The notes under the pieces: model-generated
Told to the model about the DNA's origin: nothing
Seen by the model: the letters and a program-made list of their open reading frames with translations, nothing else
Database searches by the model: none
Source of the DNA: Terriglobales bacterium
Lineage (GTDB): Bacteria > Acidobacteriota > Terriglobia > Terriglobales > Acidobacteriaceae
Assembly: GCA_025451215.1 (NCBI GenBank)
Contig: JANWKU010000181.1
Span: 1 to 64,000, forward strand
Length of the DNA stretch: 64,000 nt
Reading direction: 5' to 3'
In this document: positions 32,584 through 57,754 of the stretch, in pieces
Layout of the letters: the number at the start of each line of letters is the position of its first letter
Position numbering within the stretch: the first letter of the stretch is position 1
Position numbers and translations under genes: made by a program

Positions 32584-34623
32584 ATGAATCGCCTATCCCG
32601 TTGCGGCTTCTGGGTCTTTACCGCGCTTTTTTTGGTTGCGATTTCTGTGCTGAACACTTCAGCGCAGACTTCGTCCGCTCACGAACCGGTCCTCGACGTT
32701 CATTCCCTCGACCCGAGCATGGATCCCTGTACCGATTTTTACCAATACTCGTGCGGCGGGTGGATGAAAAGCAATCCCATCCCACCCGACCAATCCCGCT
32801 GGGACGTTTATTCAAAAATGGAGGACAACAACAAGACGCTGCTACGGGAAATCCTGGAGCAGGCTTCGCAAGCCAAAGCGCCCAATGGATCTGTTACGCA
32901 AAAGATTGGCGATTACTACGCAGCCTGCATGAACGAAAGCGCCGCTGACGCAGCTGGAGTCGCACCGCTGGAGCCTGCCCTGCAACTCATTCAGGATATG
33001 CGCTCCAAAGATGACATCGCTCCCGTCGTCGCGTCCATGGTTTACGACAGTGCGCTCTTCGATTACAGCTCCGATCAGGACTTTAAGGATTCCAGCCAGG
33101 AAATTGCCGAACTCGACCAATCGGGCCTAGGCCTTCCCGATCGCGATTTTTACTTCAACAGCGACGCCAAATCCGCTGAACTGCGCAACGAATATGTGGC
33201 CCACGTGCAAAAGATGTTCGAGTTGCTCGGCGACCAACCGGAGGCCGCTGCCGCTGAAGCACAGACCGTCATGCGTATTGAAACCGCCCTGGCCAAAGGC
33301 TCGCAGACGCGTGTGGAAAGGCGCGACCCCAATAACGTCTACCACAAAATGACGATCGGGCAATTGCAGGCTCTAAGCCCTAGCTTTGCGTGGAAGGCAT
33401 ACTTCGCGAAAACTGGAACGCCCGATGTGCAATCGCTGAACGTGGTCAGTCCCGAATTCTTCAAGGCCATGGATGCCGAACTGAAGGCCGAAGATTTGAC
33501 CAATTGGAAAACATACCTGCGCTGGCATCTGCTTAAAGCCAATGCTAACTATCTGTCCAATGCCTTTATTAACGAGTCATTCGATTTTTACGGACGTAAA
33601 CTGCAAGGCGCGGAGCAGCTCGAGCCGCGATGGAAGCGCTGTGTGGAGCAAGTGGACGACAACCTTGGAGAGGCCCTGGGACAGGCATACGTGGAACGCG
33701 CATTCAGCCCCGCAGCCAAACAGAGCGCTTTGCAAATGGTTCGTCAAATCGAAGACGCCATGCAGCAGGACATAGAATTTCTGCCCTGGATGAGCGACGT
33801 CACCAAAAAACAGGCACTCGTTAAGCTACACGCTGTCGCCAATAAAATCGGATATCCCGACAAGTGGCGCGACTACAGCACACTCTCCATCGAACGCAAT
33901 GATGGCCTGGGCAACGTGCTGCGCTCGCGCGCATTCGAGTTTCGCCGCCAGCTCCATAAAATCGGCAATCCTGTGGACCGCGGCGAATGGGCGATGACCC
34001 CGGCCACAGTCAACGCCTACTACAACCCGCAAATGAACGATGTTAATTTTCCCGCGGGGATCTTGCAGCCGCCCGTGTTTGATCCCCTCTCCGATGCCGC
34101 CCCCAACTATGGCGATACCGGCAGCACCATCGGCCATGAGTTGACCCACGGCTTCGACGATGAAGGGCGTCAATTCGATGCACAGGGCAATCTGCGCGAA
34201 TGGTGGACTCCCGCGGATGAAAAGCAATTCAACGAGCGCACCGCCTGCGTCGTAAATCAGTACTCGCAATACACCGCCGTGGATGACCTCAAGGTCAACG
34301 GCCAACTCACACTCGGCGAAAACGTGGCTGACATTGGCGGAGTGATTCTCGCGCACATGGCCTGGCAGAAGGATGTGAAAGGGAAGAACTTGCAGCCGAC
34401 GGAAGAACTCACTCCTGAGCAAAGGTTCTTTGTCGGTTATGCCCAGAGCTGGTGCGCCAACATGCGCGACGAGTCAAAGCGAATGCGCGTCACCATTGAT
34501 CCACACTCCCCCGAAAAATACCGGACCAACGGCGTAGTCTCTGACATGCCTGAATTTCAGCAAGCGTTCCACTGCAAGGCGGACGCGCCCATGGTTCGCA
34601 AAGATGCGTGCCGCGTCTGGTAG
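32584..34623 (+). CDS. M13-family metallopeptidase (neprilysin/PepO-like)
   Basis: 679 residues with a signal peptide cut near NTSAQ. The zinc site is GHELTHGFDDEGRQFD (HExxH) with the third ligand in ENVADIGG and the family-typical NAYYNPQMNDVNFPAGILQP before it. N-terminal MDPCTDFYQYSCGGWMKSNP and terminal CRVW are also standard M13 marks. An exported zinc endopeptidase acting on short peptides. GGAGG lies before the ATG. About 48 bp behind the wHTH gene. Confidence 0.96.
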   Translation: MNRLSRCGFWVFTALFLVAISVLNTSAQTSSAHEPVLDVHSLDPSMDPCTDFYQYSCGGWMKSNPIPPDQSRWDVYSKMEDNNKTLLREILEQASQAKAPNGSVTQKIGDYYAACMNESAADAAGVAPLEPALQLIQDMRSKDDIAPVVASMVYDSALFDYSSDQDFKDSSQEIAELDQSGLGLPDRDFYFNSDAKSAELRNEYVAHVQKMFELLGDQPEAAAAEAQTVMRIETALAKGSQTRVERRDPNNVYHKMTIGQLQALSPSFAWKAYFAKTGTPDVQSLNVVSPEFFKAMDAELKAEDLTNWKTYLRWHLLKANANYLSNAFINESFDFYGRKLQGAEQLEPRWKRCVEQVDDNLGEALGQAYVERAFSPAAKQSALQMVRQIEDAMQQDIEFLPWMSDVTKKQALVKLHAVANKIGYPDKWRDYSTLSIERNDGLGNVLRSRAFEFRRQLHKIGNPVDRGEWAMTPATVNAYYNPQMNDVNFPAGILQPPVFDPLSDAAPNYGDTGSTIGHELTHGFDDEGRQFDAQGNLREWWTPADEKQFNERTACVVNQYSQYTAVDDLKVNGQLTLGENVADIGGVILAHMAWQKDVKGKNLQPTEELTPEQRFFVGYAQSWCANMRDESKRMRVTIDPHSPEKYRTNGVVSDMPEFQQAFHCKADAPMVRKDACRVW

Positions 34624-34656
34624 GAGAATGAAGAACGTTCGGAAGAAGGCAACAAA

Positions 34657-48773: not shown

Positions 48774-50234
48774 TTGCGTCGTTTCTGCTGGATTTGTCTC
48801 ATCATGCTGGTGGGTCTCTGCTCCGCAGTTGCTTTTCTGCGGTTTTCCGTTTCCGTCGTATCTGCCGCCTCGCACTCGGTAACGCAGGCAAAGCTGCTTA
48901 AGACCTCGGCGAAGGCGACTTTGTCCGTCCCGGCCGTGTCCGTACCCACGATCAGCGTTCCAGCCGGCGATACGCTCTATTCAGCCAAGCGCGGAGAAGC
49001 CGTCGTCACCGTGGCCCGCCGATATCTCGGCCAGACTTCGTACCTGACGTCTTCGGAACTCTCTGACGCCATCCGCAAAGCCAACGGCGATTACGCCGGA
49101 ACCTTTTTTAAAGCCAACCAACAGGTTTTGATCCCAGGAATCTTACCTGCGCCGATCGTAGAAAAGATGATTCCCGTGCAGCGCGACTTTGAAGCTCGCG
49201 CCATTTACCTGACCGCCATCATGGCCGCCAGCGACCACGGAGTCCGCATCGTGAAGCAGTGGCGCGCAGTGGGCGGCAATGCCGTGGTTTTCGACATTAA
49301 GGACAGTGACGGCAGCGTGAACATTCCCTTCGACTATCCGCTGCTCGGCCAGCATCACGTCGTCATTCATGATCTGCCCAAATACATTCGCTTCCTGCAC
49401 TCCGAGAACATGCACGCCATTGCGCGCGTGGCCATCTTCCGCGATCAGCACCTCGTAGAAACACATCCCGAACTCGCGGTGAAATCTCGCAAAACCGGTC
49501 AACCATGGCGCGAAAACGGCAAACTCGTATGGACGGATTCTTCCAATCCCAAAGTCCAGGACTATGACATTGCCCTGGCGAAGGCGGCCGCCGAAGCTGG
49601 TGCCGACGAAATTCAGTTTGACTACGTCCGATTTCCCGCCGAAGGCGACCAGAAAGACGCCAGCTTCAACTTTGAAACCGCGCACCCCGGCTGGCACCGT
49701 TCTGACGTAATTACCGACTTCCTGAAACGCGCCTATGCGCAAATCCATCCCAGCGGCGCGCTGCTTTCACTCGATGTATTCGGCGTGATGGCATGGCAGC
49801 GCCCCGCCGATCTGAACCACACCGGCCAGGACATCGTGGGAATGGCCAAGTATAGCGACGTGATCTCGCCCATGATCTATCCATCGCACTTCTTCAAAAT
49901 GGACGGCTACGACCACCCCGGAGACGCGCCGGAACACTTCATCGGCGAGTCCATGGCGCGCTTCGAAAAGATCACCGCCGGGAGCGGCGTAGTAATTCGC
50001 CCGTGGCTGCAAGCCTTCCGCTGGCGCACCAAGACCTACTCGCCCGACTACATCAAGGTGCAAGTGCTGACCGCAAAGGAAAAGGGCGGCATCGGCTTCC
50101 TCTTCTGGAATGCGGCGAATGATTACAGCAAGCCCTACATTGCTATGCCGGAGATGAAAGCCTCCGCTGGAAAGTATTTCCGCGGCGATGAACTGCCGAA
50201 GACAATGCAGGCAAGCCTCGCACACGCAAACTAA
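48774..50234 (+). CDS. secreted putative glycoside hydrolase (DUF4015 family)
   Basis: 486 residues, TTG start with AAGGAG upstream. An N-terminal hydrophobic signal/anchor (FCWICLIMLVGLCSAVAFL) leads to a LysM-like or Gly/Ala segment (DTLYSAKRGEAVVTVARRYL, about 75-125). The body is a (beta/alpha)8 DUF4015 barrel: GGNAVVFDIKDSDGSVNIPF, ADEIQFDYVRFPAEGD with the catalytic-type acidic residues, LLSLDVFGVMAW, YSDVISPMIYPSHF. DUF4015 is related to glycosidases of unknown specificity. With a LysM-like module it may act on peptidoglycan or exopolysaccharide; that is inference. Confidence 0.85.
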   Translation: MRRFCWICLIMLVGLCSAVAFLRFSVSVVSAASHSVTQAKLLKTSAKATLSVPAVSVPTISVPAGDTLYSAKRGEAVVTVARRYLGQTSYLTSSELSDAIRKANGDYAGTFFKANQQVLIPGILPAPIVEKMIPVQRDFEARAIYLTAIMAASDHGVRIVKQWRAVGGNAVVFDIKDSDGSVNIPFDYPLLGQHHVVIHDLPKYIRFLHSENMHAIARVAIFRDQHLVETHPELAVKSRKTGQPWRENGKLVWTDSSNPKVQDYDIALAKAAAEAGADEIQFDYVRFPAEGDQKDASFNFETAHPGWHRSDVITDFLKRAYAQIHPSGALLSLDVFGVMAWQRPADLNHTGQDIVGMAKYSDVISPMIYPSHFFKMDGYDHPGDAPEHFIGESMARFEKITAGSGVVIRPWLQAFRWRTKTYSPDYIKVQVLTAKEKGGIGFLFWNAANDYSKPYIAMPEMKASAGKYFRGDELPKTMQASLAHAN

Positions 50235-50280
50235 TTCATTCGCCAAAGATCGCGGGATACTAACTAGATCCATTTCCGCC

Positions 50281-50464
50281 AACACCATCCCAACCGAGGG
50301 TGCCCCACCCTTTTCGCGCATTTTGCGAAAGGGTGGGAGGCAAACCGCTGGCAGCTTCAGACCAAAACAATAAATTATGCCCGCGGCACCATCAGGAGAT
50401 GACCACTCGACGTTGTCCAACTACCCACCCTTCGCAAAAGAAGCGAAAGGGCGGGCCACCCGCG
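50281..50464. repeat. CCACCCTTTCGC hairpin repeat, copy 1
   Basis: Core CCAACCGAGGGTGCCCCACC followed by a hairpin: CCCACCCTTTTCGC and GCGAAAGGGTGGG around ATTTT. Further on, GGCAAACCGCTGGCAGCTT and the boundary CGACGTTGTCCAA match copy 3. A second weaker hairpin (CCCTTCGC / GCGAAAGGG) lies near 50442. No coding capacity. Other copies at 51752 and 53426. Confidence 0.75.
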
Positions 50465-50530
50465 AACTGCCGAAGACGATGCAGGCAAGCGTAGCGGCAA
50501 ATCATTAAAAAAATGCCCAAATCGGCATTG

Positions 50531-51031
50531 TTATCTCATACTACCCAATTGCTCTTCTACAGAGTTGTAGGAATGTCCTCCGATGGAATAGCGAATAAGC
50601 AAGACAGTTTTCACTCCGCACGATATCCAAACCCTTTGAGCAGTTAGATCAGGCGAAGGCTTTGTATCGGCGGTTACGATGCAAGAGGAAAATCCTTGAG
50701 TATTTAAGTAGCTAATAACTCCAAACAATGCTTCTCCCACATCGTTTTCGGAAGTTGTCCATTCTCTTTCGGCATAGCCGAGAACGCCATTTGTGAACTG
50801 GAGAGTTGGGCCCATGTGTCCTTTTGAAAGTGACCCTAGCATCCACTCATCATCTTTGATTTTCGTAATCTCATCCCCAAACAATTTTGCCGCTACTTGT
50901 GCTTGGGTCATCCCCAGATGCAATTCCGTCCCGCCCACTTCAATGATCGCTTTGGGATTTCCATGAGTAGTCGTTTGGGCTACCAACAGCGATGAAACTA
51001 AAACAAGGTAAATCAGAGCGGAAAAGCTCAT
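50531..51031 (-). CDS. secreted protein of unknown function
   Basis: 166 residues from the ATG at 51031, preceded by GGAGGTAA. Signal peptide (FSALIYLVLVSSLLVAQ). The mature part has GGTELHLGMTQAQVAAKLFG, which recalls the GMTxxQV motif of BamE/SmpA-like folds, and two Cys (SSCIV, ISCGV) that could form a disulfide. The DNA is AT-richer than the backbone. Lies between repeat copies 1 and 2 with the gene at 51214. No clear homologue known to me. Confidence 0.65.
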   Translation of the reverse strand: MSFSALIYLVLVSSLLVAQTTTHGNPKAIIEVGGTELHLGMTQAQVAAKLFGDEITKIKDDEWMLGSLSKGHMGPTLQFTNGVLGYAEREWTTSENDVGEALFGVISYLNTQGFSSCIVTADTKPSPDLTAQRVWISCGVKTVLLIRYSIGGHSYNSVEEQLGSMR

Positions 51032-51213
51032 TTTAATTACCTCCAGAAGCAGCGCGATTTTAACAAAACAAGACTTCCCGATACAGAAACATACGGCGAT
51101 TTCGCGGGATGAGTCAGGCAAGAAATTGAAAATTTTATCGGATATTTTTTATCAGAGAAATAGAGCGAAACCGTATATAGATCATCTTTAGTTATGGGTA
51201 TAATTGCCGACCA

Positions 51214-51744
51214 ATGAGCGACCATCACATCCAGCTTCTAATGCTGTTGGTTCAAATCGCCGGACTGATATTTCTAATCTGGTATGCAATCGAAACTTGG
51301 AGGCTCAGGAAAGCGGCCCAACGGCAAGCGCAAGCCGCCCTAGACCAAGTCGAGGGTACATCCAAACCGTGCATCATGATTCTAGGCGAGTTACGAGACG
51401 GTGCGGATGCGATTCTGGAAATGAATGGTGCGGTCGGCAATATCATCGCCCGCCCCGACCAAGGCAGCTTCATCATCCAGAATATAGGCAATGGTGCCGC
51501 TCTGAATGTGCGCTACCGATTCTCGCGCCCTGACGATAATCCTGCCCAACCCAGAAACGTACGCTTCATCCCAAACGTTATGCCGACCGGTCGGGTCACG
51601 CTCGTGGAGAGAATCGGCAATTATCGCGAATTGCATGAAGCGATCTTTGAATACGGAAGCATCAATGGCCGAAAGTACCGCTCAACCGTGCAGATTAATA
51701 ATCGCGTACTGACAGGATTCCATTTTATCGAAGTAAAAAACTAA
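51214..51744 (+). CDS. membrane-anchored beta-sandwich-like protein, unknown function
   Basis: 176 residues. One N-terminal helix (LLMLLVQIAGLIFLIWYAIE) followed by a coiled-coil-like stretch (TWRLRKAAQRQAQAALDQ) and a beta-rich domain with SFIIQNIGNGAALNVRYRFS, the pattern of many uncharacterised single-pass proteins with an Ig-like extracytoplasmic or cytoplasmic domain. It ends in HFIEVKN. Sits in the AT-richer cassette flanked by repeat copies 1 and 2. No ribosome site is obvious. Confidence 0.7.
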   Translation: MSDHHIQLLMLLVQIAGLIFLIWYAIETWRLRKAAQRQAQAALDQVEGTSKPCIMILGELRDGADAILEMNGAVGNIIARPDQGSFIIQNIGNGAALNVRYRFSRPDDNPAQPRNVRFIPNVMPTGRVTLVERIGNYRELHEAIFEYGSINGRKYRSTVQINNRVLTGFHFIEVKN

Positions 51745-51751
51745 ACTTTCC

Positions 51752-51880
51752 CCGCGGGCGGGTGGCCCAGCCTTCCTTTCGTTCCTCGCCAACACTATCC
51801 AACCAAGGTTGCCCCACTTTTTTCGCGCATTTTGCGAAAGGGTGAGAAGCAAACCTGCCGACAGCTCGCCGGGACTGAAA
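51752..51880. repeat. CCACCCTTTCGC hairpin repeat, copy 2
   Basis: GGGCGGGTGGCCCAGCCTTC, then CAACCAAGGTTGCCCCAC and the hairpin CGCGCATTTTGCGAAAGGGT, closely matching copies 1 and 3. Shorter at its right end, lacking the ATTATGCCC and TTGTCCAA part. Confidence 0.7.
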
Positions 51881-52010
51881 GCCGATTCAACCCACCTTTC
51901 GGCTTCACAAGGGTACTCTCCATGTAATATCCCTAAATCTTCGGTACGCACGATCAGGCGCAACCCGCCATCTTCCTCTATGATCCCTTCCAGATGAGGA
52001 ACCGGGCGCA

Positions 52011-52985
52011 ATGAATAAAGCGGATAGCAAGGACAAGGCAAGCCACCTCTCCGCGATAGTAGCGAACTCCCTGGATACTCCGGCGAAAACGCAGGACCTC
52101 GCCCGCCAGGCATATCAAAGCCGCACGCAGTTCCACAGGCTGTTTCGGACCATGGTCGCAGAAACTCCGGCGGCCATGCGGCGAAGACTGTTGCTGGAAA
52201 GATCTGCCTATCAGCTGGGACATACCGGAATGTCGGTCACGGACATCGCTCTGGACGCCAACTACAATTCCTTGGAGGCGTTCACTCGCGCTTTCCGGAA
52301 AGCTTTCCGGACGTCTCCCAGCATCTACCGGCGCATGCGTGGTCCGCACTACCACCTGCGCGCGGACAACAACATTCACTTTCTCGCCCCCGGTCCCTCA
52401 ACAATTGGTTCCCCAACAAAAGGAGGAAGCGACATGGATTTATTCGATCGTTTTGCAGGCAACGATTCCTGGCACACGCGCCGGTTGCTGGAATATGCAG
52501 GTACCTTAACCGACGAGCAATTGGACCGGACGCTGCCCACCGTCGTCGAGCTGTTGCCCTGGCGGGAGTCGAACAAGACTCTAAGGCAACTACTCGAAAA
52601 CATAATCTTCACCAAGGAAGTCTGGACCGCCGCGCTCTCCGGGGCCGATATGGATATGAACGGCCCTCCTAAATCGCAGCGCTCTCCGCAAGCAATGTTG
52701 CAAAGGCTCGAAAAAACCGATATCGAGCTGCATCGCATTTTCACCGACGTTAGAAATCATTCCTCGTGGGACGACACTTTCGTTGACGCTCTATGCGAAC
52801 CGGCTGAAGCCTTCACCTTCGGCGGCGTCTTCGCCCATATCATGACCTTCAACGCGCATCGCCGACTGATGGCCCTGGACGCTCTTCGCCAACTCGGCGT
52901 CCAAACCGAAGGGTTCGGCGATCCCATGGAGTATGAAGAAAGCGTCGCGCCCTGGAACCAACAGGTAGCCGTCAAAACGCCATGA
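52011..52985 (+). CDS. AraC-type HTH fused to DinB-like domain, with internal start
   Basis: 324 residues. Residues about 10-110 are an AraC DNA-binding domain (FHRLFRTMVAETPAAMRRRL, MSVTDIALDANYNSLEAFTR) without a sensor domain. Residues 142-324 form a DinB-like four-helix bundle (MDLFDRFAGNDSWHTRRLLE, FGGVFAHIMTFNAHRRL). Inside the frame, AAAGGAGG stands seven bases before the ATG of Met142 (52434), a stronger ribosome site than at the first ATG, so a free DinB-like protein of 183 residues is probably made as well. DinB-like proteins are often metal-dependent thiol transferases. Overlaps the DUF1801 gene by ATGA. Confidence 0.88.
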   Translation: MNKADSKDKASHLSAIVANSLDTPAKTQDLARQAYQSRTQFHRLFRTMVAETPAAMRRRLLLERSAYQLGHTGMSVTDIALDANYNSLEAFTRAFRKAFRTSPSIYRRMRGPHYHLRADNNIHFLAPGPSTIGSPTKGGSDMDLFDRFAGNDSWHTRRLLEYAGTLTDEQLDRTLPTVVELLPWRESNKTLRQLLENIIFTKEVWTAALSGADMDMNGPPKSQRSPQAMLQRLEKTDIELHRIFTDVRNHSSWDDTFVDALCEPAEAFTFGGVFAHIMTFNAHRRLMALDALRQLGVQTEGFGDPMEYEESVAPWNQQVAVKTP

Positions 52986-53368
52986 CCGCGAGAACGGAAT
53001 TGTTTCGATTGAACGGCGCAGTCGAGCACGATCCAGCCATTGATGCGTGGATGAATGAGCATGCGGGCGAGTTGGGGTCCATCGCGCACCACTGGTTTGA
53101 GGTGATGCGAAAGTGCGGGGACGAGATCCGAGAACTTTTGCACGATGGCTGCCCGACTGCATGCCTCGGAGATGCAGCCTTCGCATACGTCAACGTAGGA
53201 TTCTTTCAAGGCGCATCGCTGCCGGATCCTGCCCGCTTGTTGCAAGGCACCGGCAAGTTCATGCGCCACGTAAAGTTGAAAGCGGAAACGGCCACAAACG
53301 CCGCAGAACTACGGCGACTCATCGTTGCGGCATACGAAGATATAACGGCGCGAGTCGAAAACGGCTAG
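52982..53368 (+). CDS. DUF1801-domain protein
   Basis: 128 residues. AIDAWMNEHAGELGSIAHHW, IRELLHDGCPTACLGDAAFA, VNVGFFQGASLPDPARLLQG and the MRHVKLKAE ending are typical of DUF1801 (YdhG-like, iron-chaperone-related fold). Cytoplasmic; function not established. Starts four bases before the end of the HTH-DinB gene (ATGA), so the two are co-translated. The pair lies between repeat copies 2 and 3. Confidence 0.85.
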   Translation: MTARTELFRLNGAVEHDPAIDAWMNEHAGELGSIAHHWFEVMRKCGDEIRELLHDGCPTACLGDAAFAYVNVGFFQGASLPDPARLLQGTGKFMRHVKLKAETATNAAELRRLIVAAYEDITARVENG

Positions 53369-53425
53369 CTCAGAATGCGGTTCTTCCCAACTCCCGACGC
53401 ACAGATATAGGGAGTGTCTCAGTAT

Positions 53426-53612
53426 GACCACCCGGCGCGTCGCCCAGCCTTTCTTTCGCCCCCCAAACACTATCTCAACCGAGGGTGCCCCACCCTTTTC
53501 GCGCATTGTGCGAAAGGGTGGGAAGCAAACTGCTAGCAGCTTTTCCGCCTTGGCATAGATTATGCCCAACCGCAGCATCTCTCATGGGATGACCGATTCG
53601 ACATTGTCCAAA
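53426..53612. repeat. CCACCCTTTCGC hairpin repeat, copy 3
   Basis: TCTCAACCGAGGGTGCCCCA, hairpin CCCACCCTTTTCGC / GCGAAAGGGTGGG, GGAAGCAAACTGCTAGCAGC, ATTATGCCC, and the terminal CGACATTGTCCAA seen in copy 1. Its end coincides with the beginning of the broken TolB/TPR gene. Confidence 0.75.
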
Positions 53613-53613
53613 A

Positions 53614-55071
53614 GTGGGAAGCCGCGTTCGCCATCGGCTTCGTTATCCTCGCCGGGATAATGCTTGCCTCAATCTTGGCGGCTTGCGCGACCGCCTTTTC
53701 TCCAGCAGCCAGATTGGTCCCATCCACTCCATCGCCGTGCTTCCTCTTGCAAATCTCTCAGGCGATCCTTCGCAGGAATATTTCTCCGACGGTATAACGG
53801 ACGAACTGACTACCGCGCTCGCACAGAACCATTCCCTGCGCGTCGTCTCGCGTACGTCGGCAATGCAATTCAAGGGCGTGAGCAAACCGCTGCGCGAAAT
53901 CGCGCAATCCCTCGGCGTGGATGGAATTCTGGAAGGTTCGGTGATGCGCACGAACGGACAGGTGCATGTAAACCTGCAACTGATCTATGCGCCGACCGAC
54001 ACCCATATATGGGCGGAAAGTTATGATCGCAGCCTTAAAGACGCCATTTCTCTGCCTGAAGAAGTTTCCCAAACTATTGCGGCGCAGGCCAAAGCTCCGC
54101 CCCCTGCGGTCAAAGCTCAAAAGTATGTGAACCCAGAATCCCATGATGCATATCTCCAGGGCCGCTTTTTCTGGTATATGGGGGACTTCAACCGAAGTGA
54201 ACAGAATTTCGAGAGCGCGGTCCAATTACAACCGGATTACGCCGCCGCATGGTCCGGCCTTGCCGACGTATACGGAACCAGGGCTGTGGACTGGCAGATA
54301 CCGCCCGCAGCTGCTTTCGCGAAATCTAAGGAATATGCCCGCAAAGCACTGGCCCTGGACGATTCGTCGCCTGAGGCCCACAACACCATGGCCGCAATTT
54401 ATTTGTTCCATTACTGGGACTGGCCAAAAGCTGAAGGCGAATCCCGCAAGGCCGTCGGATTGAATCCGAACTTTGCCGAGGCACACCTGATCCTTTCCAA
54501 AATACTTTTTGTGCAGAACCATGACGCGGAAGCATTGCAGGAACAGAAAATATCAAGCCAGATCGATCCGCTATCCAACCCTTCCTCGTTAGGGCTTGCC
54601 TACATCTACGATCGCCAGCTTGACGCAGGCATTGAAGATCTCAAACAGAAGGCCCAATTCCGGCGGGATTTCTGGGTTGAATTTAATTTATCGAACGCTT
54701 ACGCCATCAAGGGTGAGGACCGCAAAGCAGCCGTGGCCCTGGAACAGGCTTACCTGAATCAGAACGACACGAAATCCGCCACAGCCGTCCGCCAGATCTT
54801 CAATAAAAATGGAATGCGCGGAGTTCGGGAGCGGTCGCTAAATCAACAACTGGCGCTTGCTAAAAAACAGTATGTCTCGCCCTGGGTGCTCGCCTGGCAA
54901 TATGGGCAGTTGCAAGACAAAGAGCACGCTCTCGCAAAACTTGAGGACGCTTATAAGGAACATTCGGCATTTTTGATATTTGTCCAGAAAACGCCGACCT
55001 TCGATTTCCTCCATTCGGACGAACGCTATCGGACGCTCGTGAAAAAGATTGGCCTGTCGCCGGCTTGGTAA
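53614..55071 (+). pseudogene. 5'-truncated, frameshifted TolB-like/TPR protein gene
   Basis: The open frame (485 codons from GTG) contains an intact FlgO/TolB-like domain (HSIAVLPLANLSGDPSQEYF, SDGITDELTTALA, about 38-150) and seven or so TPR-like units (FESAVQLQPDYAAAWSGLAD and others). In full-length relatives these follow a CadC-type winged helix and a membrane helix. Here no winged helix exists: the sequence runs directly into repeat copy 3. The membrane helix (AFAIGFVILAGIMLAS) is readable, but one frame back, at about 53630-53670, so a one-base shift separates it from LNLGGLRDRLF. A residual cytoplasmic product starting at the GTG is possible. Confidence 0.65.
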
Positions 55072-57511: not shown

Positions 57512-57634
57512 GGCTAAGTTGTAGCGCAGCAATATTACGGGACAATGAAAATTGCACTAAAATCGGTGCGGGTGAGGTTAAGTCGGTAACTCTATTCGGG
57601 TTACAGCTCAGAAATCTTACAACTCTGAAAATCA

Positions 57635-57665
57635 TGTCATCCCGAGCCGCATTTGCGAGGGACCT
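57635..57665. repeat. solitary TGTCATCCCGAG core
   Basis: TGTCATCCCGAGCCGCATTT with GAGGGACCT 8 bases on; a single half-element of the family at 3691 and 46882, between the metallophosphoesterase and YggX genes. No inverted partner seen nearby. Confidence 0.45.
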
Positions 57666-57754
57666 ACGACAGATCGAACTGCATATGCTGTCATTGGGAG
57701 CCACGTCCGCGGTTAACCTATTGACCCCAAGGCACTAAGAACCCATACCCCCGA

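Follow-up and report, generated by a model that had tools for sequence, protein, structure and literature searches.

A REPIN-like hairpin repeat family in a Terriglobales genome and the accessory genes that its copies appear to partition

The DNA analysed here, a stretch of 64,000 nucleotides from a Terriglobales bacterium (contig JANWKU010000181.1 of assembly GCA_025451215.1; hereafter the window), carries behind a DUF4015 gene several copies of one hairpin repeat with accessory genes lying between them. The arrangement raises the question of whether the repeats are the joints at which gene blocks have been gained, lost or swapped, as the first-pass annotation had suggested, or mobile DNA whose copies happen to stand between genes. 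Our analysis strongly favours the second answer: with a probability of roughly 85%, the repeats are non-autonomous mini mobile elements of the REP/REPIN type, TIRtron-like and separately inserted, and the genes between them have not been moved by them. The interval is composed as follows.

48774..50234, + strand: DUF4015 gene, the conserved left neighbour (PF13200, 3e-79)
50250..50463, + strand: unit 1, a REPIN-like doublet that follows the DUF4015 gene; its left end is decayed, with an approximate border, and its right outer end is kept
50295..50343, + strand: hairpin A of unit 1 (69.6 bits; DNA fold z -3.34)
50417..50464, - strand: hairpin B of unit 1, inverted (40.1 bits)
50452..50463, - strand: right outer inverted end of unit 1 (motif with no more than 1 mismatch)
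50464..50506, + strand: second copy of the DUF4015 gene tail (first copy: 50190-50236), beginning directly at unit 1's outer end
50531..51121, - strand: accessory gene without a family
51214..51744, + strand: accessory gene without a clear family
51757..51874, + strand: unit 2, which retains its left part, the right part being lost or decayed; its right border is approximate and comes from the homology alignment
51758..51769, + strand: left outer end of unit 2 (motif with no more than 1 mismatch)
51804..51852, + strand: hairpin A of unit 2, weak fold (53.2 bits; DNA fold z -1.31)
52011..52985, + strand: accessory AraC-HTH/DinB fusion gene
52982..53368, + strand: DUF1801 gene, overlapping the AraC-HTH/DinB gene (PF08818)
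53433..53611, + strand: unit 3, with a degenerate left end, hairpin A and some of the right side, hairpin B having been lost
53480..53528, + strand: hairpin A of unit 3 (64.8 bits; DNA fold z -3.60)

Three same-strand copies of the repeat are present, with 82-nt cores at 50276-50357, 51785-51866 and 53461-53542. The annotation had placed them at 50281, 51752 and 53426 and had described them as sharing two strings, of which the 19-mer has been found three times in the 64 kb at up to 3 mismatches (0.02 expected), and the 13-mer seven times at up to 2 mismatches (2.68 expected), a count that 2 of 100 shuffles also reach and that is not clearly above chance. The three direct copies are real; copy 2, however, departs from both strings (at 3 positions of the 19-mer and 1 of the 13-mer) and folds weakly. 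A fourth, inverted hairpin on the minus strand (E 4.3e-6 in the window), which had escaped the earlier count, lies beside copy 1 and makes it an inverted doublet. Copy 2 resembles copy 1 at 70% identity when aligned ungapped over 82 nt and at 86% when aligned with gaps over 81, and the alignment continues past the core at 78% over 151 columns for copies 1 and 3 and at 83% over 111 for copies 2 and 3; the longest exact matches among the copies are 32 nt (copies 1 and 3), 25 nt and 12 nt. Since homology extends beyond the core, the copies are to be seen as pieces of a longer unit from which different parts have been lost, with the right side kept in copy 1, the left in copy 2, and, in copy 3, some of the right side along with a left end that is degenerate. 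Divergence together with unequal truncation is what would be expected of separate, old insertions. A scan of 49801-54300 against Rfam and a search of a plasmid collection with part of unit 1 have both returned zero matches. A further dispersed repeat of about 80 nt is located in the window at 57617-57699, with six more matches (80-90%) on other contigs of the same genome.

The hairpins form a dispersed family in which stem pairing is upheld by covariation. A nucleotide search with the 82-nt core has given matches in 24 of 61 genomes, all of them within the taxonomic family of the window (24 of its 37 genomes, the window's own included; 0 of the 24 genomes outside it). Using a covariance model built from 47 of 55 candidates (8 of odd length or near-duplicates having been left out by hand), at least 27 copies have been counted in the window's genome (E ≤0.01; 150 of 1630 candidates scored) and, at E ≤0.001, at least 59 and 44 in two relatives, G028 and G007, these counts being lower bounds as 150 candidates per genome were scored. 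Among 65 aligned matches, 64 of them distinct, 94.2% of the stem cells are paired, and sliding the strands lowers the pairing to 42-57%. Changes on both sides have occurred in 8 of 13 pairs, with 45 compensatory cells against 8.6 expected and 0 of 500 shuffles as high, in an alignment that was fitted to the model and thus favours the structure. The family accordingly has the short, dispersed, multicopy palindrome of REP/REPIN sequences, and their inverted doublets are found in unit 1, on contigs C68 and C66 of the same genome and in the units of G007.

The borders of the mobile unit are fixed by a pair of sequences in G007, in which two 233-nt stretches lie 2534 bases apart and are 99.6% identical between unrelated flanks. 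Both start with GGCGGGTGGCCC and end with GGGCCACCCGCC, these outer ends enclosing two inverted hairpins, and no flanking duplication is visible at either. The full unit accordingly measures about 215-235 nt and consists of the outer end GGCGGGTGGCCC, hairpin A (consensus GGGTGCCCCAyCCTT...AAGGgTGGG), a spacer, the inverted hairpin B and the inverted outer end. An outer end has been found 25-80 nt upstream on the same strand at 15 of 230 loosely defined hairpin sites in the loci scanned, compared with 0.18 expected. At L161, 7021-7560, of G007, a 233-nt unit seems to be seated in the remnant of a transposase gene, as its left flank resembles, by eye, a stretch of RAYT protein. In the window, the 3' end of the DUF4015 gene occurs twice, at both sides of unit 1, and the two copies have diverged beyond the first 32 nt. 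We have not adopted this as a target-site duplication, because the junctions of the G007 units, unlike those of unit 1, are free of duplications.

A candidate for the enzyme that would move such a unit is provided by genes of the PF01797 type, which have been found in 49 of the 61 genomes. All four proteins scanned lie above the 80-bit cut-off of NF047646 (REP-associated tyrosine transposase, RAYT), at 100.5-110.5 bits. On contig C122 of the window's genome, such a gene (34108-34440) is situated between a hairpin at 33977-34024 (+) and one at 34606-34653 (-), and the nearest hairpins are likewise inverted around the RAYT gene in G001 (C230), in G006 (C156) and twice on one contig of G007 (C29); in G028 (C12) and G023 (C51) they stand on both sides, with the nearest ones on the same strand and not inverted. 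The contigs of G001, G006 and G023 were among those picked because a transposase or hairpins had already been seen there. By a hand tally over listed genes (2 of 5 in G000, 6 of 8 in G007 and 7 of 12 in G028), 4 of these 15 PF01797 genes are flanked to the left and to the right by a hairpin no more than 500 bp away, the expectation being 0.0004. As in REP/REPIN systems, the same kind of repeat flanks the RAYT gene, the flanking copies on C122 being of a stem subtype other than that of the window copies, for whose own subtype no RAYT has been found. In G007, one RAYT gene is accompanied on one flank by an outer end plus a hairpin and on the opposite flank by a hairpin, a search allowing 1 mismatch having revealed no second outer end. 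This arrangement suggests that a RAYT element lacking its gene is what the 233-nt form represents. In G023, a hairpin lies within a stretch that matches Y1_Tnp (L129, 1964-2012), so that this RAYT gene has probably been disrupted by its own repeat.

The copies are mostly located outside coding sequence and are biased towards gene 3' ends. Of 24 copies in the window's genome, 19 lie outside crude ORFs of at least 120 aa; one of the ORFs that contain the remaining five is probably a RAYT gene with an over-long start. For 16 of these 19, by hand tally, the 3' end of a gene faces the 5' side of the hairpin, the tally covering 19 of the 27 copies in the genome (five more fall within ORFs and three beyond the loci retrieved), some of which are paired and hence not independent. 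The model matches of the three direct copies in the window begin 61, 60 and 112 bases behind the stop codons of the DUF4015, 51214 and DUF1801 genes. Consequently, since the copies settle behind genes, a partitioned appearance is to be expected wherever such elements occur along a run of genes.

The genes themselves are accessory, as the annotation had stated. The two genes between copies 1 and 2 have a GC content of 0.446-0.462 compared with about 0.55-0.58 around them, which bears out their description as AT-richer; the gene at 51214 is matched in 0 of 248 other genomes and that at 50531 in 3 of 248, its nearest match (61%) being in G206, where the locus has two poor hairpin matches (19.6 and 16.8 bits). 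Between copies 2 and 3 lies, as reported, the HTH-DinB/DUF1801 pair (52011..52985 and 52982..53368). The HTH-DinB gene has matches in 9 of 297 other genomes and additionally in G025; they are 83-87% identical, at scattered places and across genera, whereas the aligned DUF4015 segments in relatives are only about 46-73% identical, which suggests a horizontal spread of the HTH-DinB gene. A DUF1801 gene has been found near it in 3 of 10 other loci examined (G025, G221 and G143), and in G025 a 204-aa ORF is placed between the two genes. No strong hairpin is located near the HTH-DinB gene in 10 other genomes or near a lone DUF1801 gene at 2 loci; the weaker matches at these 12 loci reach 33.9 bits about 5 kb away and 27.3 bits about 280 bp away. 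The spread of the pair thus does not need the repeats.

At the site itself, the AAA gene and DUF4015 upstream are kept in most relatives (mostly Acidobacteria metagenome genomes among those named through DUF4015, with some Candidatus Sulfotelmatobacter), and the downstream content varies widely. The commonest downstream neighbour is a branched-chain aminotransferase (NCBIfam, one member scanned), which by hand count lies within about 600 bp of DUF4015 in 14 of 70 loci and at 1.2-4.7 kb in 8 more, with differing inserts, so that the spacer is variable without needing the repeats. Indeed, it is also variable in loci with no detected hairpin, such as L017 and L051 (both the site of G001), and the variable stretch is a property of the DUF4015 spacer in the group. 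The accessory genes of the window have not been found beside DUF4015 in 80 loci or in another DUF4015 set, many of the loci ending short downstream; the gene order kept in all relatives, by which the annotation would have given up its proposal, is therefore not what is observed. In G001, the sole other member of the genus in the set of relatives, the stretch downstream of DUF4015 is unmatched in the window's own genome, a comparison made with no positive control. One truncated locus, L096, carries downstream of DUF4015 a match to the TPR gene of the window at 49% identity, and the genes after 55072 are, in the relatives, either far from DUF4015 or placed on different contigs. Among the genomes compared, none has shown an unoccupied site for one of the window copies.

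How, then, have three copies come to lie within 3.3 kb? The proposal that homologous recombination between copies gains, loses and swaps the blocks of genes between them would fit the direct orientation of the copies, the 32-nt exact stretch common to copies 1 and 3 and the rarity of the intervening genes in the order. However, no relative shows a loss or swap at the DUF4015 site, none carrying the genes there, the HTH-DinB gene occurs elsewhere with no strong flanking hairpins, and the copies have diverged to exact matches of 12-32 nt, each having kept another part of the unit. The swapping of cassettes through recombination between repeats thus finds no support, and we regard this account as highly improbable. 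The copies lie closer together than would be expected from a handful of random insertions, which, along with the closest resemblance being that of copies 1 and 3 and the gene tail being doubled around unit 1, could be accounted for by duplication of one copy in place with its neighbouring DNA, followed by divergence. This is nevertheless unlikely, as the genes between the copies are unrelated, homology ends at the element borders and does not run into the genes, and copy 2 has in GGTTGCCCC a sequence that is common to copies on other contigs, not to copies 1 and 3. We are similarly doubtful that the hairpins owe their retention to a function at the 3' ends of genes, in mRNA end protection or the ending of transcription, beyond being mobile DNA: the compensatory changes that uphold the stem and the facing of gene 3' ends by the 5' sides of 16 of 19 copies point that way, but mobile hairpins that avoid genes and promoters would give the same features, relatives do not share copies at the same places, the stem of copy 2 has decayed, and terminator-like sites are not in excess (4 against 4.6 expected in 50000-53800).

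The dispersal of the hairpins, their position around RAYT genes and the complete unit in G007 instead point to REPIN-like, non-autonomous and partly decayed mobile elements. One may postulate that RAYT, a single-strand HUH/Y1 enzyme, recognises the hairpins and disperses the unit, and that new copies would settle downstream of genes, in the spacers, mostly oriented so that hairpin A turns its 5' side to the stop codon. The three window copies would then have landed separately in the variable stretch behind the DUF4015 gene and decayed thereafter. The genes between them may look like cassettes and yet not have been moved by the copies, and the partitioning is most simply taken as incidental. 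A more specific version is that the nested composite of outer inverted ends and inner hairpin doublet moves as one piece of 215-235 nt and derives by deletion, as a non-autonomous form, from an acidobacterial RAYT transposon, its copies lying in sense behind genes. We advance it tentatively, at somewhat below even odds; if true, the unit would represent a lineage of its own, standing between REPINs and IS200-like elements. What has been gained is the anatomy, and a searchable model, of a repeat family of soil Acidobacteria that has apparently only been touched on in the literature, together with the warning that gene blocks between REP-type repeats are not to be read as recombination cassettes without data from strains.

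Among known systems, the REPINs with their RAYTs (Bertels and Rainey, 2011; PMC3116915), as presented there, share with the present family the inverted hairpin doublets, the dispersed and mostly extragenic location and a nearby RAYT gene with the same hairpins. They differ in that an extra outer inverted end lies here outside the doublet, as in the 233-nt unit of G007, and that the GTAG tag is absent: in place of the 5' GTAG or GTGG that stands by the stem in the GTAG-tagged REP superfamily, GGgTGC precedes it. For class 3 TnpA-Y1 elements, about 600 structures are described in Solibacter usitatus (PMC6006769), and an acidobacterial HUH transposase with multicopy DNA structures is a common trait; the tyrosine motif of that class is given as YV[VI][AENY]EQ, compared with YIHNNP, YIHRNP, YMHQNP and YMHRNP in the RAYTs analysed here. 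The TIRtrons and TIRYT of Acidobacteria (Di Nocera et al., 2013; PMC3733652), one Koribacter TIR set of which is described as a repeated family, combine an acidobacterial tyrosine transposase with long flanking inverted repeats in place of GTAG REPs, an arrangement that the repeats around the RAYT genes here resemble. The GGGGWSAS shared by some TIRs does not fit the present repeats, in which the reverse complement of the conserved GTGCCCC reads GGGGCAC, the comparison being one with the text description of the TIRs. The repeats are of the REP/REPIN kind with RAYT and, going by that description, nearest to the acidobacterial TIRtrons.
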